Notes under the pieces: model-generated
Told to the model about the DNA's origin: nothing
Database searches by the model: none
Seen by the model: the letters and a program-made list of their open reading frames with translations, nothing else
Position numbers and translations under genes: made by a program
Assembly: GCF_900116115.1 (NCBI RefSeq)
Contig: NZ_FOZP01000003.1
Location: forward strand, 186,001-250,000
DNA from: Lutibacter maritimus
GTDB taxonomy: Bacteria > Bacteroidota > Bacteroidia > Flavobacteriales > Flavobacteriaceae
DNA: 64,000 bases
Direction: 5' to 3'
In this document: in pieces, positions 8,909 to 27,843 of the stretch
How positions within the stretch are numbered: position 1 is the stretch's first letter
Layout of the letters: each line of letters begins with the position of its first letter

Positions 8909-10219
8909 TTAAACTTCTACACCTTTCATCATTTTATTCCAATACAAATAAGGAAGCATATATTTTTTCAACAGCCATAATCTCCAATGCTCTTTTGATG
9001 AATCTGAAATCATTAAAGGAAACTGTTTCAATTTTGGGTCTGGTTCAAAGTTTTGATTATAATCAAACTCAGCCAAAACCATTTTTCCATAACCCGTAAC
9101 TAACGGACAAGAAGTATATCCTTTATATTCTTTTGTTGAAAGCGCATTTGTTTCAATTAACTTTAAAATATTTTCAACTACAACCGGAGCTTGTTTTCTA
9201 ATGGCTGCACCTGTTTTTGAAGTTGGTAAATTAGAAACATCTCCTAAACTAAAAATATTTGCATATTTAAAATGTTGCATTGTTCCTTTATTTACATCAA
9301 CCCAACCAGTTTCAGAAGCCAATGGCGAATTTTTTATAAAATCGGGAGCACATTGTGGTGGTGCCAAATGCATCATATCAAAATGAATTCCAAATTGCTC
9401 TCCTCGTCTACTTACTTTAACATCTTTATAATTGTATTGAATTTCTTTATCTAGTGAAGCAATATCACCATCAGCAATGGTAACACAGCCACCTGCTGTT
9501 AAATCTTTATCAATTTCATACCAAGCAATTTTTTTATCACCATCAACCTTTACAAGTCTGTGAAAAAATCGAACGTTAATATCTTTTTTATCAACTACAT
9601 TCATTAATGTATCAGCAATAATTTTTACACCAAAAATAGAACCGCTTGGTAATGCAAAAACAATATCTGTTTTATCTCTCAATCCTACTTTTCTAAAATA
9701 TTCATCAGCTAAATACATTATTTTTTGAGGCGCTCCACCACATTTTATAGGTGTAGCTGGTTGTGTAAAAAGTGCTGTTCCTCCTTTAAATTTTTTTAAA
9801 ACTTCCCAAGTATGTTTTGGGTTGGTATAATTACTACATACTACACCACTATCCATCGCTTCTTTTAAACCCTCAATCATTTCAGGAGCAATCTTTAATC
9901 CTGGCACAACAACTAAATAATCATAGGTAAATTCTTCACCTTTTTTAGTAATGACTTTATTATTTTCCGGTTCAAATTTATCAGCATATTGTTTTATCCA
10001 TTCAACTCCTTTTGGAATTAAAGAAGCCATCGGTTTTGCTGTTTTTTCAAAATCATATGTATTAGCGCCAACCAACGTCCAAGCAGGTTGATAATAATGC
10101 GTTTCTGCTGGCTCAATTAACCCAATTTGAATGGATTTATTTTTTCTTTTTAGCATTGAAGAAACCATAATTCCGGCGGTACCACCACCAATTATCAGTA
10201 CTTGATAATGTTTTGACAT
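8909..10219 (-). CDS. sqr: Sulfide:quinone oxidoreductase, SQOR-like (type II)
   Basis: This FAD flavoprotein of 436 residues oxidises sulfide and reduces membrane quinone, giving a persulfide. A dinucleotide fold starts at once (VLIIGGGTAG). The two redox cysteines expected from animal SQOR are conserved in context, C160 in TPIKCGGAPQKIMYL and C371 in TSCPLVTGY. The tail (PFLYWN-like LPYLYWNKMMKG) also resembles mitochondrial SQOR. The start at MSKHY (10219) is preferred over the upstream TTG at 10246, because the flavin fold follows directly and the predicted promoter lies at 10251-10258. It is the last gene of the sulfide cluster and has its own Crp-like site. Confidence 0.93.
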   Translation of the reverse strand: MSKHYQVLIIGGGTAGIMVSSMLKRKNKSIQIGLIEPAETHYYQPAWTLVGANTYDFEKTAKPMASLIPKGVEWIKQYADKFEPENNKVITKKGEEFTYDYLVVVPGLKIAPEMIEGLKEAMDSGVVCSNYTNPKHTWEVLKKFKGGTALFTQPATPIKCGGAPQKIMYLADEYFRKVGLRDKTDIVFALPSGSIFGVKIIADTLMNVVDKKDINVRFFHRLVKVDGDKKIAWYEIDKDLTAGGCVTIADGDIASLDKEIQYNYKDVKVSRRGEQFGIHFDMMHLAPPQCAPDFIKNSPLASETGWVDVNKGTMQHFKYANIFSLGDVSNLPTSKTGAAIRKQAPVVVENILKLIETNALSTKEYKGYTSCPLVTGYGKMVLAEFDYNQNFEPDPKLKQFPLMISDSSKEHWRLWLLKKYMLPYLYWNKMMKGVEV

Positions 10220-10250
10220 AATAGTGTTTTTTAGATTAACGTTCAACTAA

Positions 10251-10294
10251 GAAAATTAAATAAAAAAAAGCATTTTAATGTGATTATAATCACA
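10251..10294 (-). promoter_or_regulatory. sqr promoter: Crp-like site plus -7 box
   Basis: A perfect TGTGA-N6-TCACA palindrome spans 10279-10294. On the minus strand a TAATTTTC -7 box, one base from TAnnTTTG, spans 10251-10258. The 21-nt step between box and site is the same as at the SulP and persulfide dioxygenase promoters. No -33 TTG is present, as expected for an activator-dependent promoter. The operator lies inside the upstream terminator hairpin. Confidence 0.62.
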
Positions 10295-10306
10295 TTAAAA
10301 TGCTTT
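10262..10306 (-). terminator. Terminator formed by a 40-bp perfect palindrome
   Basis: Positions 10267-10306 are a perfect palindrome (18-bp arms around TATA), and on the minus strand it is followed by a run of T (10262-10269). It begins 21 nt past the DUF2892 stop, so it ends the HMA-DUF2892 transcript. Its centre is the Crp-like operator of sqr. Confidence 0.8.
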
Positions 10307-10327
10307 AAATAAATCATTAAGATTCAA

Positions 10328-10537
10328 TTATTCTTTTATTTCACAAGTATTAATCCCAAAAAGAGTATAAAGCGGACAATACCCTGTTATTGGAGTTACC
10401 AACATTACAGCTGATATAACATATAAAACATACTGAATCCAATTGGTTTCAAATGTTGTTGAATAGGCAAAATAGCCAATTGCAATGGCTAAAACCATTC
10501 TTATAATTTTATCAGTACTGCCTACATTCTTTTTCAT
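10328..10537 (-). CDS. DUF2892 (YgaP-type membrane domain) protein
   Basis: This small inner-membrane protein of about 69 residues has two hydrophobic helices (IIRMVLAIAIGYFAY and YVLYVISAVMLVTPITG) and a short C-terminal cysteine-containing tail (YCPLYTLFGINTCEIKE). This pattern is typical of DUF2892 proteins, which are often fused or linked to rhodaneses. The ATG at 10537 is chosen over the upstream TTG because the family begins with MKKNVG-like sequence. It follows the HMA gene by 10 nt and precedes sqr, suggesting a role in sulfur handling at the membrane. Confidence 0.82.
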   Translation of the reverse strand: MKKNVGSTDKIIRMVLAIAIGYFAYSTTFETNWIQYVLYVISAVMLVTPITGYCPLYTLFGINTCEIKE

Positions 10538-10547
10538 AATTGGTGTT

Positions 10548-10820
10548 TTAAGATTCTGAACCCAATTTCCCTGTTGCACAACTCACAAATGATTTTGCCT
10601 TGTGAATTATGGTGTTTGCATCACCTACTTCTGGATATCCCATTGTTGCAAGTTTATTTTTTACTTCTGTTAAAACCGAATTATCTTTGCTATCTATAGT
10701 CACTTTTGATGTTTCTAATTCTACAGAAACATCAGTAACTCCATCAATTGCTAACAATCCTTTTTTAATAGAATTGGCACAACCACCACATTTTAAGTTT
10801 AATATTTCTAATGTTATCAT
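10548..10820 (-). CDS. HMA (heavy-metal-associated) domain protein
   Basis: This 90-residue protein is a ferredoxin-like HMA domain with the metal-binding CGGC at 11-14 and the usual VDGVTDVSVELETSKV-type pattern. A further cysteine, C81, lies in a KAKSFVSCATGKL tail. Such domains carry Cu(I) or similar soft metals, and here the sulfide context also allows a thiol or persulfide role, which is inference. It is probably co-transcribed with the DUF2892 gene. A possible minus-strand -7 box TAATTTTG lies at 10839-10846. Confidence 0.85.
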   Translation of the reverse strand: MITLEILNLKCGGCANSIKKGLLAIDGVTDVSVELETSKVTIDSKDNSVLTEVKNKLATMGYPEVGDANTIIHKAKSFVSCATGKLGSES

Positions 10821-10857
10821 ATTATTAATTTGAGATTACAAAATTACAAAAATAATT

Positions 10858-11022
10858 TTAGGAGTGACCTCTTACAACTATCATCATTACTTTTAAATTT
10901 AACCTGAAAAAATTATAAATCTGATATGGAAAAAAAACTCTCATAAATCGAACCAATTTTGTTGGTTCTGTTCCGTATGAAATATTACTATAAGGTACTG
11001 TTTTATCTGTTGTTGTTTTCAT
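10858..11022 (-). CDS. Small 54-residue protein in the sulfide cluster
   Basis: A short frame of 54 codons starts at the ATG at 11022, only 15 nt after the stop of the SQR-like gene, and ends with TAA at 10858-10860. The product has a polar N-terminus, a basic-aromatic middle (KLVRFMRVFFPYQIYNFFR) and a tail ending in VVRGHS. It could lie as an amphipathic helix on the membrane. I do not know a named family. Its position inside the operon and tight spacing argue that it is real. Confidence 0.6.
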   Translation of the reverse strand: MKTTTDKTVPYSNISYGTEPTKLVRFMRVFFPYQIYNFFRLNLKVMMIVVRGHS

Positions 11023-11037
11023 GTGTTTCGCTTTAAA

Positions 11038-12495
11038 TTATTCTGGAATTAACCACCAAAATGGTTTTGCTTTAGCTTTATATAAAAACATATAATGCAT
11101 AAATAATTTCATCCAATGTCCTGCTGTACCTACAACTCCAACAGTATCATCAATATTTCTTCCCCATTTTGGATATTTTTCCCAATCTTGAACAATTGGA
11201 TTTACAGTCATTACAGCAGCTTGACCATTTCTTAATCCATAACCGGCAGAAACTATACAAGCAGCACCCATTTTTGCCATTGATGCTTTATGCGGATGCT
11301 CAATTTTACCAACTTTTATGGAATGGATAATATTTTGAGCAACAATTTTACCAATAACACCTGATGGCATTCCTGTTCTTGGAGGGGTTGGAAATATTTT
11401 TGTGCCGTTTGGACTTTCCATTGGTTTAGACATTGCATGTGGTGGTGCAAAAGCTATACCTGCTGCATAAATATTACTATATTTTACACTTTGGTAAGTT
11501 AATGGCCAATCTTCAGCTTTCCATTCTTCATAAGGTTTTGGAGTATAATCAGCATCTACTTTCATCATTCCATTGGCAGCAAAAACTTCAGCACTAATAT
11601 CTTCATTACTTTTATTAAAAGCTTTCATTCCAGCTCCTGCAAAACCAGGAATCAACATTGCAAAATCAAAATTTACAGTTTTATGTTCACCTTTTAAATT
11701 TTCATAATATACAACACCTTTTTCTACTTTTTGTACACCAGCTTGCTTAATCCACTGTACGCCATATTCTTTTAAAATAGATTCAGCAAAAATTTTGGTT
11801 GGCGTTATATATCCGTTTCTTTTAATATAAGCGCCTCCCATACCAAAATCACCCAACTCATATTCATTGGTTATCCACCATAAATCTGCTAAATGTTGTA
11901 GTTTACGTTTTTTAATTTCAAAAGCTATATTTAAAATATACTCAAAAGCAGCACCTTGACAAGTTGCCATTGCGTGTCCAGTTCCAATTAAAAATGTTTG
12001 TCGCTCACCATTTTCCATTTTCTTTAAAGACTCTTGTAATTTGGTCCAAGCATGTGCAGCATGATCATATGTACAAACTGATTCTGTATGTTTTTTTGGC
12101 CCCAAACCTTCTGTCGCTTCAAAATTTAATTTTGGCCCTGTAGCATTTATCAAATAATCATAAGTAACTTTTTCTTCAACATCTTTTTTATCATCAGAAA
12201 CATATTTTATAGTAACAAATCCTTTTTCGTGAACTGCATCTCCTTCAGGATTTATTGAAACTGCTAATGCTTGCTTATAATCTACACCCATCTTTTTATA
12301 AACTGGTGCTAAAGAAAATTTCACCTGATCTGGAGTCATTAAACCTACTCCAACCCAAATATTAGAAGGTACCCATTGAAAATTACTATTTGGAGAAACC
12401 ATCACTACTTCGTGTTGTTTTTTAAGACTTTTACTTAAATATGAAACTGCTGTGTGTCCAGAAATTCCTGCACCTAAAACAACTACTTTTGCCAT
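11038..12495 (-). CDS. SQR-like NAD(P)/FAD-dependent oxidoreductase
   Basis: This 485-residue flavoprotein belongs to the sulfide:quinone oxidoreductase/flavocytochrome c family. The FAD-binding VVLGAGISG is at 5-13 and NATG at 117-120. Candidate redox cysteines are C141, C179 (MATCQGAAFEY) and C413 (GAACIVSAGYG). PRTGMPSGVIGKIVAQNI is the usual FAD-dimethylbenzene/quinone-site element. The C-terminus (HWMKLFMHYMFLYKAKAKPFWWLIPE) is aromatic and basic, suited to monotopic membrane attachment. It is distinct from the SQOR-like enzyme at 8909, so the cluster carries two SQR types. It starts 1 nt after the DUF3365 stop. Exact SQR type and substrate remain open. Confidence 0.85.
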   Translation of the reverse strand: MAKVVVLGAGISGHTAVSYLSKSLKKQHEVVMVSPNSNFQWVPSNIWVGVGLMTPDQVKFSLAPVYKKMGVDYKQALAVSINPEGDAVHEKGFVTIKYVSDDKKDVEEKVTYDYLINATGPKLNFEATEGLGPKKHTESVCTYDHAAHAWTKLQESLKKMENGERQTFLIGTGHAMATCQGAAFEYILNIAFEIKKRKLQHLADLWWITNEYELGDFGMGGAYIKRNGYITPTKIFAESILKEYGVQWIKQAGVQKVEKGVVYYENLKGEHKTVNFDFAMLIPGFAGAGMKAFNKSNEDISAEVFAANGMMKVDADYTPKPYEEWKAEDWPLTYQSVKYSNIYAAGIAFAPPHAMSKPMESPNGTKIFPTPPRTGMPSGVIGKIVAQNIIHSIKVGKIEHPHKASMAKMGAACIVSAGYGLRNGQAAVMTVNPIVQDWEKYPKWGRNIDDTVGVVGTAGHWMKLFMHYMFLYKAKAKPFWWLIPE

Positions 12496-12496
12496 A

Positions 12497-13069
12497 TTAT
12501 TTATTTTTAAAAGTAATACTCCAAATTCCTCTTAAATCGCCTTCTGCATATCCGGTAGCCTTATCATTTGGATATAATGATTTTATAATTGAATCTGTTT
12601 TAATATTTACTGTTTCATTTAATTTACCGTGACAGACCAGACAATTTGCTTTTAAAATTATTGGTGCATAAAAATGTTTTTTGTTATTAGCATCTAATTC
12701 AACTATTGGAGATAATTGTTTACCGTCCATTTTCATTTTTTGAAAATCTGCTAAAATTTCTGATTCTCTTTTTGAAGGAGCGTTATCAGGATTTCTTAAA
12801 TTATTTGAAGTTCGTTTAATTGTAGCTTTAAATTTATCTGACAACTCATTTGTGATTGGCATTGCTTTTTGATTGCAAAATGGTATTGCTTGAGCCGGAC
12901 CGCCAGCTTTCATCTGTTCAGTTAACTGTGTACTTAACGCTAAAAATGATGCTTCAGCAATTTCTTTTCCTTTTACACGATATTCTTCCTTTTCTTTTTC
13001 AGAAAAAGAAGAATTACAAGAAATAGTTATCAATAGAATACTTAATAAATAAAATGTTCTTTGTATCAT
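12497..13069 (-). CDS. DUF3365 (Tll0287-like) c-type haem lipoprotein
   Basis: This 190-residue exported protein has a lipoprotein leader ending at C18 (ITISC) and a DUF3365-type sensor-like domain. A single haem-c motif CLVCH spans residues 143-147. Such domains bind one haem with redox or gas-sensing behaviour. The start at 13069 is chosen because it gives a clean lipoprotein leader, and its ATG overlaps the rhodanese stop as TAATG. A location between a rhodanese and an SQR-like enzyme suggests electron transfer or sulfide sensing on the outer face of the inner membrane; the role is inferred. Confidence 0.82.
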   Translation of the reverse strand: MIQRTFYLLSILLITISCNSSFSEKEKEEYRVKGKEIAEASFLALSTQLTEQMKAGGPAQAIPFCNQKAMPITNELSDKFKATIKRTSNNLRNPDNAPSKRESEILADFQKMKMDGKQLSPIVELDANNKKHFYAPIILKANCLVCHGKLNETVNIKTDSIIKSLYPNDKATGYAEGDLRGIWSITFKNK

Positions 13070-13470
13070 TATTTTGTAATTTGAAGATTTTCTTTGGACC
13101 AATTCATGATTCCTCCTTGTAAATCATATACTTCATTAAACCCTAATTTAGCAACTTTTGCTGCTGCAGAAGAGGTTCTATTCCCTGATCTACAATATAA
13201 AAATATTGGTTTTGATCTATCGTATTTTCCAATTTCTTCTATAAAAGAGCGATCAAAATAATTAATATTTATTGCACCTTCAATATGTCCTTGATTAAAT
13301 TCTTGAGGTGTTCTAATATCAATAATAATTTGATTTACTGATTTCTCTTTAAATTCAGTTGGTTTAACTATGTGAATTGCTGCTTTTTCTTGCTCGTTTA
13401 ATGGAGGTTTTGAGTTACAACCTATGCTAATAAATAGCACAAATAAAATAATGCCTAATTTTAATTTCAT
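13069..13470 (-). CDS. Rhodanese-like lipoprotein
   Basis: This 133-residue single rhodanese domain follows a lipoprotein leader with lipobox ISIGC (C18). IIDIRTPQEF and the active-site loop YCRSGNRT with catalytic C93 are intact, so it should transfer sulfane sulfur in the periplasm. The ATG at 13470 is preferred over the upstream one (13512) because the -7 box TACATTTG is at 13494-13501. It is the first gene of the rhodanese-DUF3365-SQR-like operon. Confidence 0.9.
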   Translation of the reverse strand: MKLKLGIILFVLFISIGCNSKPPLNEQEKAAIHIVKPTEFKEKSVNQIIIDIRTPQEFNQGHIEGAININYFDRSFIEEIGKYDRSKPIFLYCRSGNRTSSAAAKVAKLGFNEVYDLQGGIMNWSKENLQITK

Positions 13471-13493
13471 ATTGATATGTTTTTGATTTTTAA

Positions 13494-13538
13494 CAAATGT
13501 ACCTAACCACATTTTGAAATGTGGTAACTAAAGTTACG
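13494..13538 (-). promoter_or_regulatory. Promoter of the rhodanese operon with two overlapping palindromes
   Basis: On the minus strand a TACATTTG -7 box spans 13494-13501. A GTAAC-N4-GTTAC palindrome at 13524-13537 fits the Crp-like pattern except at the outermost bases, with a 22-nt step to the box instead of 21. Between them 13506-13525 is a second palindrome, ACCACATTT-TG-AAATGTGGT, which overlaps the first by 2 nt and covers the -33 region. This suggests dual control. Confidence 0.5.
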
Positions 13539-13553
13539 AATAAAAATAAAAAA

Positions 13554-13572
13554 GGGGAGTTTAAAACTCCCC
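13554..13572 (-). terminator. Intrinsic terminator of the persulfide dioxygenase gene
   Basis: Perfect 9-bp arms GGGGAGTTT/AAACTCCCC, followed on the minus strand by a T-rich run. It lies 25 nt after the dioxygenase stop. Confidence 0.85.
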
Positions 13573-13596
13573 AAAATATTAAATAAAAAAGAACAC

Positions 13597-15012
13597 TTAT
13601 AATAATGTTGTTGGGCAAACATAATCTGTTAATTCTACCCCAGTATCTTTAATGTCATTAAAACCTCCTCTAACATCAATTACATTTTTAACGCCATTTG
13701 CTTTAAAAATTGACGCAGCAATTAACGAACGGTATCCACTTGCACAATGAAGTACATAGGTTTTATCTGGTTTTATTTCAGCAAAATTAGAATGAATATA
13801 ATCTAACGGGAAATTTCCTACTCCCACTACATGCTCAGAAAGGTATTCTGACTCTTTTCTAACATCAAGCGCTTCACCAAGTGAGCCTTCTTTTAATTTG
13901 TTTGCAAATTGAGTTGCTGATATAGAACTAATTTTATCAGCTTCGTATCCAGCAGCAAGCCAAGCATGCATTCCTCCTCTTAAAAATCCGTAGGTATTAT
14001 CATAACCAACTCTTGAAAAACGTGTTACCACTTCGTGCTCTCTTCCTCCTTCGGCAATAAAAATTATTTTTTGTTTTATATTAGGAATTAAAGCTCCAAC
14101 CCAAGGTGCAAAACCTCCATCGGCTCCAATAAACCAGGCACCCGGAACAGTTCCTTCTTCGGTATATTCTTCTTTTGAACGTGTATCAACAACTAAAATA
14201 TCATCACGTTCACTCATTTCTTTAAAGGTTGCAGCATCCAATGGCGTAGTTCCTCTATGAAGAATTTCATCTATACTAGTATTAATTCCTTTGTTCATTT
14301 TAACATTATTACCAAAATATTGTGGTGCTGGTTTTAAGCCAGTTGTAACTTCGGTAATAAATTCTTCTTTGGTCATATCTGCTCTTAATGCATAATTTGT
14401 TTTTTTCTGATTACCAAGTGTATCAAAAGTTTCTGAACTCATATTTTTTCCACATGCAGAACCTGCTCCGTGATTTGGGTACACTATAATATCATCTGGT
14501 AAAGTCATAATTTTATTTCGAAGAGAATCAAATAAGTGACCGGCTAAATCCGTTTGAGTTAAATCTGATTTTACGGCTAAATCTGGTCTACCAACATCAC
14601 CAATAAATAAGCAATCTCCAGTAAATACGTACGGCATTTTTCCGTTTTTATCAATTAGCAAATACGATGACGATTCCATTGTATGACCTGGAGTATGTAA
14701 TAGCTTTAAAGTTACATCACCAATTTTAAAAAATTCACCATCTTTTCCTTGATGGATATCATAATGAGGATTTGCATTTGGGCCAAAAACGATTGTAGCT
14801 CCTGTTTTTTTTGCTAAATCTACTTGACCAGACACAAAATCAGCATGAAAGTGAGTTAAAAAAACATATTTAATTTTAGCTCCATCAGCTTTCGCCATTT
14901 CAATATATGGTTCAGTTTCTCTAAGAGGATCAATAATTGCAGCTTCTCCATTAGATTCAATGTAGTAAGCCATTTCTGCCAAGCAGCCTGTAAATAATTG
15001 TTCAACTTTCAT
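13597..15012 (-). CDS. CstB-like persulfide dioxygenase-rhodanese fusion
   Basis: This 471-residue enzyme begins with an ETHE1-type metallo-beta-lactamase dioxygenase domain (about 1-240). Its metal-site residues H54, H56 and D58 (THFHADF), H110 (TPGHT) and D133 (TGDCLF) are present. The first rhodanese domain (about 265-360) has EGGRE in place of the cysteine loop and is catalytically dead. The second (about 370-471) keeps C423 in LHCASGYR. This active-dead-active order matches staphylococcal CstB, which turns low-molecular-weight persulfides into sulfite and thiosulfate. It is monocistronic, with its own terminator and Crp-like promoter. Confidence 0.93.
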   Translation of the reverse strand: MKVEQLFTGCLAEMAYYIESNGEAAIIDPLRETEPYIEMAKADGAKIKYVFLTHFHADFVSGQVDLAKKTGATIVFGPNANPHYDIHQGKDGEFFKIGDVTLKLLHTPGHTMESSSYLLIDKNGKMPYVFTGDCLFIGDVGRPDLAVKSDLTQTDLAGHLFDSLRNKIMTLPDDIIVYPNHGAGSACGKNMSSETFDTLGNQKKTNYALRADMTKEEFITEVTTGLKPAPQYFGNNVKMNKGINTSIDEILHRGTTPLDAATFKEMSERDDILVVDTRSKEEYTEEGTVPGAWFIGADGGFAPWVGALIPNIKQKIIFIAEGGREHEVVTRFSRVGYDNTYGFLRGGMHAWLAAGYEADKISSISATQFANKLKEGSLGEALDVRKESEYLSEHVVGVGNFPLDYIHSNFAEIKPDKTYVLHCASGYRSLIAASIFKANGVKNVIDVRGGFNDIKDTGVELTDYVCPTTLL

Positions 15013-15055
15013 AATTCTCTGATTTTAATATTTTTAAACTTAGTATGTAGTTTTT

Positions 15056-15099
15056 CAAATCTACATGAAAGGTTCTTTTTTTTTGTAACCGAGGTTACA
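15056..15099 (-). promoter_or_regulatory. Persulfide dioxygenase promoter: Crp-like site plus -7 box
   Basis: TGTAA-N6-TTACA spans 15084-15099 (core GTAACC-GA-GGTTAC). The minus-strand -7 box TAGATTTG spans 15056-15063. The 21-nt step is the same as at the SulP and sqr promoters. The -33 position falls inside the palindrome and has no TTG, which fits class-II-type activation. Confidence 0.65.
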
Positions 15100-15122
15100 T
15101 AAATAACTTTTTTAAGAAAAGT

Positions 15123-16859
15123 TTAATTATTTGTTTGTTGTATGTATTCAAAATATTTTAGTTCCAATTCTTTATTTTTTACTTTATCTTCAAAAGCATC
15201 AACTGCTTGCTGAATACTCATAAAACAATTTTCGTAACTAATTTTTTTCATAATACCGCTTTTTTCTAAAACATCTCTTACAGGACCTTTCATACCTGTA
15301 AGTGCAATTTCAATTTGTTGGTTGTGATATTTTGAAATGACATCATTAAACATGTAAATTCCAGAACTATCAATGGTATTAATACTTTCTCCATCTATGA
15401 TAATTAGTTTTAAGCCAGTACCTTTTTCATTTACAAAATCTTCTAACTGATCTTTAAAATATTGCACATTTGCAAAAAATAATTGCGCATCAAAACGTAC
15501 TATTAAAATTGCTGGATTTATTTCTAACAAGCCTTCAAACCGTTTAATGTTTCTATAAAAATGAGTATTTGGAATTTTTCCTAAAATAGCAATATGAGGT
15601 TTTGTACTTCTGTAAATTAACATTCCTAATGACAAAACAACTCCAATAAATATTCCTTCCTTAATTCCTATTGTGGCGGTAACAATTAAGGTAATATTTA
15701 AAATAATCAATTCTCTTTTTGAGTATTTTAGCAATTGTTTTGGTACCGTAAAATCTAACAAACCGAAAACAGCAACTATAATAATTGCTGCCAAAACCGC
15801 TTCTGGCAAATAGTAAAAAACGGGTGTTAAAAATAATAATGTAAGTCCAACAATTATACTTGAAATTATTGCTGCCATTGGTGTTTTTGCACCAATTTGA
15901 TTGTTTACTGCTGATCTTGATAAACCGCCAGTTGCTGGATATGTTTGAAAAAATGAACCTACAATATTTCCCATTCCAATAGCAATTAACTCTTGGTTTG
16001 GATTTACTTTATAGTTATTGTGCTTTAATTCTATGGCTTTAGCAACAGATATTGCTTCTAAAAAAGCAATGAATGATAACGTTAATGCTATAGGAAATAA
16101 ATCGACAATTATATCTAAACTAAACCTCGGCATTTTAAATGCTGGTAAACCTTGCGGAATATCGCCAATTATTTTTACGCCAATTTCATTTAAATTTAAA
16201 TATTTAACAGCAACAATTCCTAATATCACTAAAACTAATGCTGCTGGAATTTTTTTTGTCAATTTTTTAAAAAAAACTAAAATTAATATGGATATAATTC
16301 CAATAGCAAACGTAACCCAGTTTATTTCGCTAATATGTTTATAAACTTCAATTAGTAGTTCGTGAATTTTATTCCCTTTTTGAAGATTTACACCTAATAA
16401 GTTTTTAAGCTGACTTAAAGCAATTATTAAAGCTGCAGCTGATGTAAAACCACTAATAACAGGTCGCGATAAAAAATTAACTAAAAAACCCAATTTAAAC
16501 ATTCCAAACAATACTTGTAAAACACCCATGATAAATGCCAGTAAAATAGCAAACTCAATAAAATGTTCCGTACCAACTTCTGCTAATGTAGCAACACCGG
16601 AAGCTACAATTAATGAATCCATTGCAACTGGACCCACAGCTAATTGGCGTGATGTTCCAAAAATTGCGTAAATAATTTGAGGAATCATTGCTGTGTATAA
16701 ACCGTAAATTGGTGGTAATCCGGCAATCATAGCGTATGCAATTCCTTGTGGAATTAACATAATTCCAACAGTTAACCCTGCTCCAAAATCATCTTTAAAC
16801 CAAGATTTTTGATAATTTGGCAACCATTCTAGTATTGGAATAAATTTTTTAATACTCAT
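15123..16859 (-). CDS. SulP family anion transporter with STAS domain (second of pair)
   Basis: This polytopic inner-membrane transporter of about 578 residues belongs to SLC26/SulP. It has the conserved N-terminal GLTVGIMLIPQGIAYAMIAGLPPIYGLY segment, about 12-14 membrane segments, the NIVGSFFQTYPATGGLSRSAVN motif and a C-terminal STAS domain. SulP proteins move sulfate, bicarbonate or related anions. The start at 16859 (MSIKKF) is preferred because it aligns with the partner's MSLKKIF; it overlaps the partner's end by 11 nt. In this cluster a sulfite or sulfate role is inferred. Confidence 0.92.
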   Translation of the reverse strand: MSIKKFIPILEWLPNYQKSWFKDDFGAGLTVGIMLIPQGIAYAMIAGLPPIYGLYTAMIPQIIYAIFGTSRQLAVGPVAMDSLIVASGVATLAEVGTEHFIEFAILLAFIMGVLQVLFGMFKLGFLVNFLSRPVISGFTSAAALIIALSQLKNLLGVNLQKGNKIHELLIEVYKHISEINWVTFAIGIISILILVFFKKLTKKIPAALVLVILGIVAVKYLNLNEIGVKIIGDIPQGLPAFKMPRFSLDIIVDLFPIALTLSFIAFLEAISVAKAIELKHNNYKVNPNQELIAIGMGNIVGSFFQTYPATGGLSRSAVNNQIGAKTPMAAIISSIIVGLTLLFLTPVFYYLPEAVLAAIIIVAVFGLLDFTVPKQLLKYSKRELIILNITLIVTATIGIKEGIFIGVVLSLGMLIYRSTKPHIAILGKIPNTHFYRNIKRFEGLLEINPAILIVRFDAQLFFANVQYFKDQLEDFVNEKGTGLKLIIIDGESINTIDSSGIYMFNDVISKYHNQQIEIALTGMKGPVRDVLEKSGIMKKISYENCFMSIQQAVDAFEDKVKNKELELKYFEYIQQTNN

Positions 16860-18594
16860 TATGTAAGAGCTTTTTACATTCGCCAAATAACTTAATATCA
16901 CAATTTTCACAAATATTTTTATCTAATTTTTTATAAATAGTTGAAATTGCTGTGTATTTATCTTTAAAAAAGTTTTCTGAACCAATTGCGCTTATAAATC
17001 CACCATTTTGAAGTATATCCTGGCTGATAATTTTTAAGCCAACAAAGTAGATTCCTCCACCACGTTTTTGCCATTTCAAAACTTCTCGCGACAACCATTC
17101 TGCACCAGCTACATCAATAAAATTAACTCCGTTTGATATAATTAACAAATGTTGCTGCTTATTTTCTTCATATAAATCTGCAAAATAATTTGAAATTCCT
17201 TCAACAGCACCAAAATAAATAGAACCATCAATACGAATTATTTTTAATTGTGGACATTCTTTTGTGGTTTCATCTCTTATAATATTGATAAATTTATCAT
17301 CACTATTTTTTCCTAAAACAGCAATATTTGGTTTAGATGTTTTTTCTAAATAGAAAAATAAAGAAATTAATATACCCAAAAGTAATGCTATTTCAAGTTC
17401 TAAAAACAAAGTACCTAAAAGCGTAATCATCAATACAATAAACTCTCGTTTGCTACTTTTAATAATGATTTTTATATTTTCAAAGTCAATTAAATTATAG
17501 CCAACTAATAAAATAATTCCGCCCATTGCAGGTTTTGGTAAATAGGATGCATATTTTGCAAAAAACAACACTACTAACATTAAACCAATTGCCGATACTA
17601 TTGCTGATAAAGGTGTTTTTGCACCAGCTTGATAATTAACGCCAGAACGAGTAAAAGAACCTGAACTAGCATATGATGAGAAAAAACTTGAAATAATATT
17701 TGACAATCCCTGTCCAATAAATTCTTGATTATTATGTAACTTTTGATGAGAATGCAATGCTACAGCTCGTGCAATTGAAACCGCTTCAACCAAACCTAAT
17801 AAAGCTAACGTTACGGCTCCTGAAGTTAACAGTCGCATATCTTCAAAGTTAAAATTTGGAATTTTAAAAGGAGGTAAATTAGAAGGAACAGTTCCAACAG
17901 TTTCAATTCCATGGATATTTCCTCCCAACAAGATAGCTAAAATACTTCCCAAAACCATGGCTATTAACATATACAATCTGGAAATATATTTTATTTTTTT
18001 TATGATAAAAGCCAAAATTAATGTACCTACAGCAACTGTCAACACATATAAATTTGTTTCTTGTATATGAACAATTATATAATTAACAATTTCATAAAAT
18101 GAGCTACCCAACGGTACTTGAATACCAAAAACATGTTTTAATTGTTTAAATGCAATTAAAATACCTGCACCTGCTGCAAAACCTATAACAACTGAATTAG
18201 AAACAAAATTTACCAATTTTCCCATTTTAGCCAACCCCATAATTAACTTTATAACACCAGCCATAAATGATAATACTATTGCTAAAGAAATAAAGGCTTC
18301 TAACTCTGTTTCCGGACTTGCAAATTTACTAATTACTGCAAATACAACTATAGAACTTGTGGTGGTTGGACCAGAAATTAAATGATACGAAGATCCAAAT
18401 AATGCTGCAATTATGGGAGTTATCATAGCAGTATAAAAGCCATAAATAGGTGGTAAACCAGCAATCATTGCAAAAGCAACAGCTTGTGGAATTACAATAA
18501 TAGTGCCTGTAATACCAGCAATAAAGTCATCTTTCCAAGTGTATTTAACTAATGGTAACCAAGTTAAAAAAGGGAATATTTTTTTTAAACTCAT
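16849..18594 (-). CDS. SulP family anion transporter with STAS domain (first of pair)
   Basis: This SulP/SLC26 permease of about 581 residues has the family N-terminus (IIVIPQAVAFAMIAGLPPIYGFYTAM), the SNIISSFFSSYASSGSFTRSGVN motif and a C-terminal STAS domain (about 430-550). A short cysteine-bearing tail (ENCDIKLFGECKK) is not shared with its partner. The start at MSLKK (18594) matches the partner's start, with ATGs at 18600 and a TTG at 18615 less likely. It opens the transporter operon, which has a Crp-like promoter, and overlaps the second gene by 11 nt. The two may work as a pair or carry different anions. Confidence 0.92.
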   Translation of the reverse strand: MSLKKIFPFLTWLPLVKYTWKDDFIAGITGTIIVIPQAVAFAMIAGLPPIYGFYTAMITPIIAALFGSSYHLISGPTTTSSIVVFAVISKFASPETELEAFISLAIVLSFMAGVIKLIMGLAKMGKLVNFVSNSVVIGFAAGAGILIAFKQLKHVFGIQVPLGSSFYEIVNYIIVHIQETNLYVLTVAVGTLILAFIIKKIKYISRLYMLIAMVLGSILAILLGGNIHGIETVGTVPSNLPPFKIPNFNFEDMRLLTSGAVTLALLGLVEAVSIARAVALHSHQKLHNNQEFIGQGLSNIISSFFSSYASSGSFTRSGVNYQAGAKTPLSAIVSAIGLMLVVLFFAKYASYLPKPAMGGIILLVGYNLIDFENIKIIIKSSKREFIVLMITLLGTLFLELEIALLLGILISLFFYLEKTSKPNIAVLGKNSDDKFINIIRDETTKECPQLKIIRIDGSIYFGAVEGISNYFADLYEENKQQHLLIISNGVNFIDVAGAEWLSREVLKWQKRGGGIYFVGLKIISQDILQNGGFISAIGSENFFKDKYTAISTIYKKLDKNICENCDIKLFGECKKLLHNEY

Positions 18595-18622
18595 ATTCAT
18601 AAGTTTATATAACAATTAACAA

Positions 18623-18666
18623 CAAAAATACTTCGATATATATTTAGTATTGTGATGAAAGTCACA
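18623..18666 (-). promoter_or_regulatory. SulP operon promoter: Crp-like site plus -7 box
   Basis: TGTGA-N6-TCACA spans 18651-18666. The minus-strand -7 box TATTTTTG spans 18623-18630, again with a 21-nt step. There is no -33 TTG. The predicted transcript start is near 18617, placing the operator centre about 42 nt upstream. Confidence 0.65.
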
Positions 18667-26459: not shown

Positions 26460-27843
26460 GATTTGTGTCTCTTAATTTTTTATAATTTTCACCTGAAGAT
26501 TTTAAAATAGATTTTACTTCGGCTTGTGCAATTACTGGGAATGTTCTGGCATATAATAAGAACAATACAAAGAAGAATCCTATGGTTCCAACGTAAATTC
26601 CAATATCAACAAATGTTGGAGAGAACATTGTCCAAGATGATGGTAAATAATCTCTGTGTAATGAAGTTACAATAATTACGAATCTTTCAAACCACATTCC
26701 AATGTTTACAACAATTGAAATAAAGAAAGAGAACATTATGCTTGTACGTAATTTTTTAGACCACATGAATTGTGGAGAGAATACGTTACAACTCATCATT
26801 AATAAATAAGCCCACCAGTAAGGTCCAGTTGCTCTGTTTAAAAATGCATATTGTTCATATTCAACACCTGAATACCAAGCAATAAATAACTCAGTAATGT
26901 ATGCACATCCAACTATTGAACCTGTAATCATAATTACAATGTTCATTAATTCTATATGTTGAACTGTTATATATGCTTCTAAATTAGAAACTTTTCTCAT
27001 TATAATTAACAAGGTATTTACCATCGCAAATCCTGAGAAAACCGCTCCAGCAACAAAGTATGGAGGGAAAATTGTAGTATGCCAACCTGGAATAACTGAT
27101 GTTGCAAAGTCAAAAGATACAATTGTATGTACAGAAAGTACTAATGGCGTTGCTAAACCTGCTAAAACCAACGATACTTCTTCAAAACGTTGCCAGTCTT
27201 TTGCTCTACCGGTCCAACCAAAACTCACTAAACTATAAATTTTCTTTTGAAAAGGTTTTACAGCTCTATCACGTAACATTGCAAAATCAGGCAATAAACC
27301 AGTCCACCAGAAAACTAATGATACCGATAAATAGGTTGAAATTGCAAAAACGTCCCATAATAAAGGAGAGTTAAAGTTTGTCCAAAGTGTTCCAAATTGG
27401 TTAGGAATAGGTAATACAAAGTGCGCATTCCACACACGCCCCATATGTATTACTGGGAATAAACCTGCTTGAACAACAGAGAAAATTGTCATTGCTTCCG
27501 CAGAACGGTTAATACCCATTCTCCATTTTTGACGGAACAATAATAGTACTGCGGAAATTAATGTACCTGCGTGACCGATACCTACCCACCAAACGAAATT
27601 GGTAATATCCCAAGCCCATCCAACAGTTTTATTCAATCCCCAAACTCCAATTCCTGTTCCAATAGTGTACATAATTGATCCTAAACCCCATATAAAGGCT
27701 AGTAATGCAATTGTAAATGCAGTCCACCATAATTTATTTGCTTTACCTTCAATGGGAGCTGCTACTTCAACGGTAATATCGTGGTAGCTTTTATCTCCAA
27801 CAATTAAAGGTCTTCTAATAGGTGCTTCGTAATGAGACGACAT
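26452..27843 (-). CDS. actC: Alternative complex III quinol-binding subunit ActC (NrfD-like)
   Basis: This 463-residue NrfD/PsrC-family membrane subunit has about ten helices. It should bind menaquinol and pass electrons to the iron-sulfur subunit. Landmarks are WWVGIGHAGTLISAVLLLFRQKWR and FSPQFMWSKKLRTS. It overlaps ActD by 8 nt and follows ActB by 34 nt. The sulfide cluster's SQR enzymes would supply quinol to this complex, as would other dehydrogenases. Confidence 0.95.
   Translation of the reverse strand: MSSHYEAPIRRPLIVGDKSYHDITVEVAAPIEGKANKLWWTAFTIALLAFIWGLGSIMYTIGTGIGVWGLNKTVGWAWDITNFVWWVGIGHAGTLISAVLLLFRQKWRMGINRSAEAMTIFSVVQAGLFPVIHMGRVWNAHFVLPIPNQFGTLWTNFNSPLLWDVFAISTYLSVSLVFWWTGLLPDFAMLRDRAVKPFQKKIYSLVSFGWTGRAKDWQRFEEVSLVLAGLATPLVLSVHTIVSFDFATSVIPGWHTTIFPPYFVAGAVFSGFAMVNTLLIIMRKVSNLEAYITVQHIELMNIVIMITGSIVGCAYITELFIAWYSGVEYEQYAFLNRATGPYWWAYLLMMSCNVFSPQFMWSKKLRTSIMFSFFISIVVNIGMWFERFVIIVTSLHRDYLPSSWTMFSPTFVDIGIYVGTIGFFFVLFLLYARTFPVIAQAEVKSILKSSGENYKKLRDTNHE

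Follow-up and report, generated by a model that had tools for sequence, protein, structure and literature searches.

Which regulator controls sulfide oxidation in Lutibacter maritimus is the question raised by a 64,000 nt stretch of its genome (3.48 Mb, 20 contigs), referred to here in its entirety as the window, in which sulfide oxidation genes are clustered at positions 8909–18600. An earlier note on this DNA had linked three promoters of the cluster through a Crp/Fnr-type palindrome lying at the same distance from each -7 box, and had assigned all three to one activator. The observation is confirmed and is stronger than first stated. The palindromes are probably Crp/Fnr operators at class-II promoters of the sigma-A type, belonging to a regulon that would lead from sulfide to sulfate and would be served by two regulator classes. 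Of the earlier interpretation, the class-II Crp/Fnr sites, their conservation and their links to sulfur genes have stood, but not the single activator, since the genome encodes three paralogues with an equivalent of Arg180 of Escherichia coli CRP. Judged from the sequences, two classes of paralogous activators instead of one are the most likely arrangement.

The three palindromes, upstream of sqr, of the persulfide dioxygenase gene (pdo) and of the pair of SulP transporter genes, are present as described (Table 1), and each shows the two-fold symmetry of TGTNA-N6-TNACA expected of a class-II Crp/Fnr operator. Their identical distance from the box also holds, although the gap, counted as the nucleotides between the palindrome and the -7 box (on the minus strand for the window sites), is 20 nt, the value of 21 given earlier being a coordinate difference. 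The box sequence TAnnTTTG fits pdo and SulP, but not sqr, whose last base departs from it. Reading of the upstream sequence revealed no TTG at the usual -33 spacing in front of the sqr, pdo or SulP boxes, as had been claimed. The three modules are thus real, but the set was incomplete, as a fourth, overlooked module precedes the rhodanese operon, in which C and C replace the outer T and A of the palindrome. With this module, every transcription unit of the cluster, as judged from gene order, owns one: SulP1–SulP2; pdo; the rhodanese, the Tll0287-like protein and a sulfide:quinone oxidoreductase (SQR)-like protein, perhaps together with the heavy-metal-associated (HMA) and YgaP-like genes; and sqr. 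Sites are classed below by their half-sites as GG (TGTGA type), AA (TGTAA type) or mixed (one of each). The fourth exact match to the pattern in the window, TGTAA-N6-TTACA at 26923–26938, lies within a coding open reading frame (ORF) and was set aside as a chance occurrence.

The palindrome alone carries little information. With one mismatch allowed, 23 copies were found in the window, a number reached in 8 of 100 shuffles (expectation, 16.6), and the genome contains 33 copies of TGTRA-N6-TYACA against 27 of the reversed pattern; as this is little or no excess, the bare palindrome proves nothing by itself, and its enrichment was dropped as an argument. The combination with the box is a different matter: a palindrome followed by TAnnTTTG 10–40 nt downstream occurs seven times in the genome and not once in the control, and three of the seven (pdo, SulP and a site at C16:135182) have a gap of exactly 20. 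The genome-wide count at the given spacing, proposed earlier as a check against chance, is therefore favourable. The same was observed in 80 loci of relatives, selected by pdo and amounting to 1.28 Mb, in which palindrome and TAnnTTTG are separated by 20 nt in 51 cases, by 21 nt in 66 and by 22 nt in two, every other value between 0 and 60 occurring at most twice. In these loci a box at gap 20 or 21 accompanies 117 of 412 palindrome orientations; the exact reverse of the pattern has such a box in none of its 64 matches, and a less strict, unrelated pattern in one of 643. Chance palindromes are ruled out by this gap histogram together with the profile search described below.

At class-II promoters of E. 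coli, CRP binds TGTGA-N6-TCACA centred near -41.5. The -7 box of Flavobacterium psychrophilum has been mapped at -12 to -5 (PMC9723704), and if the start is placed by analogy with that box, the operator centre would fall near -40.5 for a gap of 20 and near -41.5 for one of 21, so that the 117 modules would share the fixed position of class-II sites, in agreement with the earlier assignment. The -33 element is accordingly weak or absent: among 113 modules examined with spacers of 17–22 nt, TTTG was found in none and TTG in three. The modules are also kept upstream of orthologues, the second check proposed earlier. A core palindrome precedes pdo in 65 of the 80 loci and is boxed in 57 of them, with L070 and L120 added by a separate search; the SulP1 sites of relatives (n=14) all have gap 20, and 13 are GG; AA-type boxed sites with gap 20–21 also precede the rhodanese gene in Lutibacter relatives. 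Among the named relatives, the nearest in pdo are Lutibacter, with 94 % (L051) and 90 % (L052) identity.

The conserved modules are linked to sulfur genes. Modules with a gap of 20–22 number 151 in the 80 loci, of which 142 precede members of the cluster families searched for, five precede another gene and four no ORF, a tally that, with loci picked by pdo, gives no genome-wide rate. The five other targets, named from the printed sequence without a family search, are a cytochrome-like protein, two TauE/SafE-like transporters, a TlpA-like thioredoxin and one protein of unknown kind. The two TauE/SafE-like genes, with gap-21 modules at L111:5007 and L113:2736, are possible extra members of the regulon. 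A sequence-only profile built from 47 of 53 sites, all of which come from genomes other than that of L. maritimus, was then used to score 150 of 15,977 first-look candidates in the L. maritimus genome. Six matches were obtained at E<=1e-3, upstream of pdo (7e-7), a molybdenum oxidoreductase (Mo-oxidoreductase; 2e-6), SulP (3.9e-6), a peroxiredoxin-like gene (4e-5), YeeE (5e-4) and a single-domain rhodanese (9e-4), and the next match had an E-value of 0.016. Two of the matched families, peroxiredoxin-like and single-domain rhodanese (both named from the printed sequence), were absent from the training; the training set did include the close Lutibacter L051, so that the pdo and SulP matches are not independent. 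Scanning of the genome for further sulfur genes, as had been suggested, thus yielded the Mo-oxidoreductase, YeeE and single-domain rhodanese promoters. The module at C16:135182 precedes a fused iron–sulfur (FeS)-NrfD gene and a molybdopterin oxidoreductase gene, beside genes read from the sequence as those of molybdenum cofactor (Moco) synthesis, and the palindrome at C16:143740 stands at gap 20 from TACTTTTA, ahead of a YeeE/YedE pair. Applied to 20 relatives and the L. maritimus genome, the profile gave 24 matches at the same threshold in 10 of the 21 genomes (the six already named and 18 in nine of 12 relatives of the same genus), all of them preceding pdo, SulP1, FeS-NrfD, YeeE1, the single-domain rhodanese or, in L. 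maritimus, the peroxiredoxin-like gene. A few loci of Saprospiraceae and Cyclobacteriaceae also contain similar sites.

No activator is encoded in the window, as the earlier note had stated; the candidates are crpA and crpB on C16 and crpC on C12. A Crp/Fnr gene lies within the stretch in 22 of the 80 loci, followed by yeeE1-yeeE2 in 10 of the 22, and the full order crpA-yeeE1-yeeE2-FeS/nrfD-moOx-sulP1(-sulP2)-pdo is found in nine. In L. maritimus, crpA-yeeE1-yeeE2-crpB are contiguous on C16 (L032:14059-16396), beside the likely Moco genes. The genome contains nine matches to HTH_Crp_2, in three of which the recognition helix carries an equivalent of Arg180 (SRVVISR in CrpA, SRVVVSR in CrpC, SREAISR in CrpB); five others have Thr or Lys at this position, and the remaining match is a fragment of 91 aa under the cut-off. 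The position of CRP Glu181 is occupied by Val in CrpA and CrpC and by Glu in CrpB, and only CrpB has all three recognition residues R180, E181 and R185. Among 140 homologues, residue 181 is Val in 88, Glu in 48, Thr in three and Ile in one. Homologues with Thr181 (3/140) or with an AREV helix (8/140) are found, for example, in the genomes of L054, L067 and L085.

Arg180 and Glu181 of CRP touch both G:C pairs of TGTGA (PMC11253593), residue 181 correlates with a site base across the Crp/Fnr family, and GTAAC sites are read by HcpR2 proteins, which mostly have Pro181 (PMC1274295). Under this family rule, pairing of Val181 with TGTAAC and of Glu181 with TGTGA would fit. For 79 of the 80 loci (all but L128), the genomes were searched for regulators at E<=1e-15, those with Arg180 were classed by residue 181 (Thr and Ile being counted with Val, and the fragments L296 and L328, which end before the helix, remaining unclassed), and the classes were compared with the 169 core palindromes that have a box and precede a family gene within the pdo loci. 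In 25 genomes with no Glu-class protein, 19 of them with sites, the 46 sites comprise no GG, 42 AA and four mixed; in 38 genomes with both classes (37 with sites), the 110 sites comprise 32 GG, 67 AA and 11 mixed; in seven genomes with the Glu class only (four with sites), two of six sites are GG and four mixed; and nine genomes with no Arg180 homologue found (four with sites) contributed seven sites, all AA. By genome, GG sites are present in 24 of 41 with a Glu-class protein and in 0 of 19 without one (Fisher 6.9e-6, kinship ignored), and presence of any G half-site agrees with regulator class in 44 of 60. SulP1 provides the best single contrast: all 13 genomes in which its site is GG have a Glu-class protein, and the one AA site is that of L062, in which none was detected. 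The YgaP-type promoters behave alike, with GG in 7/7 sites of both-class genomes and AA in 2/2 of Val-only ones.

The proposal of one activator for all sites thus has to reckon with three Arg180-bearing Crp/Fnr proteins, of which two have Val and one has Glu at 181, and with symmetric TGTGA sites confined to genomes with a Glu-class protein, although support for the latter is weak after correction for kinship. Several observations weigh against a division of labour between paralogues and, in part, against the regulon as drawn. On eight independent pairs, GG sites changed the same way as the regulator in 3.3, the opposite way in none and not at all in 4.7 (p 0.25), and the corresponding figures for any G half-site are 3.4 versus 1.1 (p 0.625); addition of 18 further regulator matches had raised the GG pair value from 0.125, and inclusion of homologues without Arg180 gave 24/45 versus 0/16 (p 7e-5; pairs p 0.25). 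Residue 181 changed between Val and Glu only about three times on the regulator tree. A mixed site is present in four genomes without a Glu-class protein (L080, L084, L111, L113), and 12 genomes with such a protein show no G half-site, although five of these have pdo stretches shorter than 9 kb (L072, L079, L081, L082, L103); the Glu-class protein of L098, L081 and L121 is of the distant AREV-helix type. AA sites were found together with no detected Arg180 homologue in L115, L075, L094 and L101. On the side of the regulon, the profile matches of sqr (rank 10, E 0.069) and, under a gap-20 model, of the rhodanese operon (rank 13, E 0.118) are weak, no match at E<=1e-3 was found in the eight relatives outside the genus or in three of the 12 inside it, the peroxiredoxin-like site of L. 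maritimus was found in none of the 20 relatives searched with the profile, and the named relative records are mostly metagenome-assembled genomes. In L115, AA sites precede pdo and the Mo-oxidoreductase gene, and the sole homologue found has Thr at the Arg180 position.

A single activator, CrpA or another, that binds both site types, with the G/A difference merely tuning affinity, would account for the mixed sites that precede pdo in a number of Lutibacter loci, for the GTRA core and spacing that the half-sites have in common, for the lack of significance on independent pairs and for the 12 Glu-class genomes whose examined stretch contains no G half-site. It is nonetheless considered unlikely, given the absence of GG sites from all 19 site-bearing genomes without a Glu-class protein, the SulP1 and YgaP-type contrasts and the known rule that ties position 181 to a site base. 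The association between residue 181 and site base, read in terms of paralogues, is suggestive, not settled.

In the arrangement of two regulator classes, an activator dimer would be positioned about 40.5–41.5 bp upstream of the start, at the site of the missing -33 element, and would recruit RNA polymerase to TAnnTTTG. The regulon would comprise sqr, the second SQR/flavocytochrome c (FCC)-like enzyme, rhodaneses, persulfide dioxygenase, the Mo-oxidoreductase (FeS-NrfD and catalytic subunit), YeeE/YedE and SulP transport and perhaps a peroxiredoxin. The Val class (CrpA, perhaps CrpC) may recognise the TGTAAC-N4-GTTACA sites of pdo, the rhodanese operon, YeeE and the single-domain rhodanese, and the Glu-class CrpB the TGTGA-N6-TCACA sites of sqr and SulP, the mixed sites of the Mo-oxidoreductase and peroxiredoxin-like genes being perhaps open to either class. 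Cys78 of CrpA is conserved in 89/89 Val/Ile-class proteins among the 140 homologues, and its position is Ser in 16 of 17 proteins with the CrpB-type VSREA helix, CrpB included, which makes Cys78 a candidate thiol or persulfide sensor of the Val class. In Acinetobacter, exposure to sulfide reportedly leaves a Crp-like protein highly persulfidated (PMC7315123), so that a Crp that senses persulfide would be plausible. The more specific picture, in which a Glu181/Val switch splits the sulfide regulon among paralogues, mixed operators are read by both, Cys78 is a possible persulfide-sensing thiol of the Val class and the sqr operator sits in a hairpin apex, is put forward tentatively, as possible rather than probable. 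If true, gain or loss of a Glu-class protein would rewrite single promoter bases within one pathway, a natural case of regulator duplication with operators co-diverging. The prediction concerns a single residue and a single base and is simple to test.

The sqr operator is unusual in being the centre of a perfect 40-bp inverted repeat, followed on the minus strand by T8, with a predicted folding energy of -21 kcal/mol, and it therefore resembles an intrinsic terminator of the upstream gene. In eight sequences (L. maritimus and seven relatives) a 16-pair hairpin with the operator as apex is followed by a T tract; 96.9 % of the cells are paired, nine of the 16 pairs changed on both sides, and none of the five measures was reached by any of 500 shuffles. 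Six pairs are invariant, namely the four operator pairs GTGA/TCAC and two in the outer stem. That the palindrome is merely a terminator, its likeness to a Crp site being coincidental, would agree with the repeat and its T8, with the preservation of the stem through paired changes, and with the weak profile score and off-consensus box of sqr. This reading appears improbable, since outer stem pairs mostly vary on both sides (two do not) and the operator GTGA pairs never do, a constancy unneeded for termination alone. The operator is moreover GG in 7/7 relatives compared, with a box at gap 20 in five and at gap 19 in L061 (that of L060 is merely a poor TAAATTCC), and boxed sites also occur at the sqr genes of other relatives. 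The simplest reading is that the hairpin is the putative terminator of the upstream gene and also houses the site of the sqr activator; read-through would then be blocked and sqr would depend on its activator.

Binding of a repressor or an unrelated dimeric regulator in place of a class-II activator is highly improbable: the downstream half-site is placed where polymerase could be blocked by a repressor, but a gap held to 20–21, the rarity of -33 elements in the 113 modules and the linkage to Crp/Fnr genes all fit activation.

The proposed regulators share features with several known systems. The palindrome, its centre near -41.5 and the R-E-xxx-R recognition helix of CrpB resemble E. coli CRP, from which the present system differs in its Bacteroidota -7 box, its sulfur regulon and the Val181 of CrpA and CrpC. 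The cAMP-contact residues of CRP are Glu72, Arg82 and Ser83; in a profile alignment the first is replaced by Met and the second by Lys, only Ser83 being kept, and the NCBIfam CRP model gave 43.6 and 26.4 bits against a cut-off of 266. Like HcpR2, these are Crp/Fnr proteins without the FNR cysteines and with a link between a site base and residue 181, and the AA-type sites match its GTAAC-N4-GTTAC motif; unlike HcpR2, which mostly has Pro181 and mostly controls hcp (Rodionov et al. 2005, PMC1274295), they have Val or Glu at 181 and sulfide oxidation targets. Membership of HcpR2 is rejected on the lack of Pro181 in all 140 homologues and in those read later, and on the lack of an hcp (PF03063) match in the L. 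maritimus genome in a search that was positive in five of 14 control genomes. Membership of FNR is likewise rejected, as the N-terminal cysteine cluster (at least three Cys in the first 45 reference columns) is absent from all 140 homologues.

Known regulators of sulfide oxidation include BigR/SqrR (ArsR), FisR (sigma-54) and CstR (CsoR-like), which similarly control persulfide dioxygenase, sqr and YeeE/YedE operons (PMC9774590, PMC7315123, PMC5823870). BigR/SqrR and CstR are ArsR and CsoR-like repressors and FisR is a sigma-54 activator, whereas the candidates described here combine a cyclic nucleoside monophosphate (cNMP)-binding domain with a Crp-type helix-turn-helix and, unlike FisR, would act at promoters of the sigma-A type. 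CrpA has only the PF00027 and PF13545 domains at E<=0.001 and no ArsR, CsoR or sigma-54 domain; the rest of the genome was not searched for such regulators. Neither Crp/Fnr control of sqr or pdo in Bacteroidota nor a Crp/Fnr sulfide regulon with its paralogue split in this phylum was found among the matches listed in open-licence literature, in which the slash form of the family name is unsearchable; the promoter design and the residue rule are of known kinds. These findings point to Crp/Fnr control of sulfide oxidation in Flavobacteriia, with candidate genes named.

Table 1. Promoter elements, hairpin and genes of the sulfide oxidation cluster in the window
Feature	Positions	Strand	Sequence or Pfam domain	Gap (nt)	Remarks
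sqr operator	10279–10294	minus	TGTGATTATAATCACA	20	GG
sqr -7 box	10251–10258	minus	TAATTTTC	20	last base off consensus (C, not G)
Rhodanese operon operator	13523–13538	minus	CGTAACTTTAGTTACC	21	AA; fourth module
Rhodanese operon -7 box	13494–13501	minus	TACATTTG		
pdo operator	15084–15099	minus	TGTAACCTCGGTTACA	20	AA; profile match E 7e-7
pdo -7 box	15056–15063	minus	TAGATTTG		
SulP pair operator	18651–18666	minus	TGTGACTTTCATCACA	20	GG; profile match E 3.9e-6
SulP pair -7 box	18623–18630	minus	TATTTTTG		
Terminator-like hairpin	10262–10306	minus			sqr operator at apex; inverted repeat 10267–10306, T8 10262–10269
sqr, sulfide:quinone oxidoreductase-like	8909–10219	minus	PF07992		ATG 10219 by eye; ORF list TTG 10246
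YgaP-like transmembrane protein	10328–10579	minus	PF11127		upstream of sqr hairpin
HMA domain protein	10548–10820	minus	PF00403		
Second SQR/FCC-like flavoprotein	11038–12495	minus	PF07992		
Tll0287-like protein	12497–13102	minus	PF11845		
Rhodanese	13069–13470	minus	PF00581		first gene of rhodanese operon; ATG 13470 by eye
pdo, persulfide dioxygenase-like	13597–15012	minus	PF00753, PF00581		metallo-beta-lactamase and rhodanese domains
SulP2 transporter	15123–16910	minus	PF00916, PF01740		
SulP1 transporter	16849–18600	minus	PF00916, PF01740		ATG 18600 by eye

Gene assignments in the window are based on Pfam, nearly all NCBIfam matches of the cluster proteins being under the cut-off; sqr reached 254 bits with SQR_III (cut-off 525), and the name of pdo is inferred, none of the NCBIfam models listed for it being above cut-off. 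The start codons of sqr, rhodanese and SulP1 were read by eye. A second sulfur cluster was observed in the L. maritimus genome at C12:138000-152000 (L040, L131), its genes being named from the printed sequence with a family match for CrpC only. Near it, in L162 (vicinity of C12:152860, minus strand), the AA-type palindrome TGTAACCATTGTTACC lies about 100 nt before a second Mo-oxidoreductase gene, with no good box at gap 20–21. The cluster itself encodes a Mo-oxidoreductase, FeS and NrfD-like subunits, a YeeE/YedE-like pair, four rhodanese-like proteins, a porin-like protein and CrpC of the Val class.

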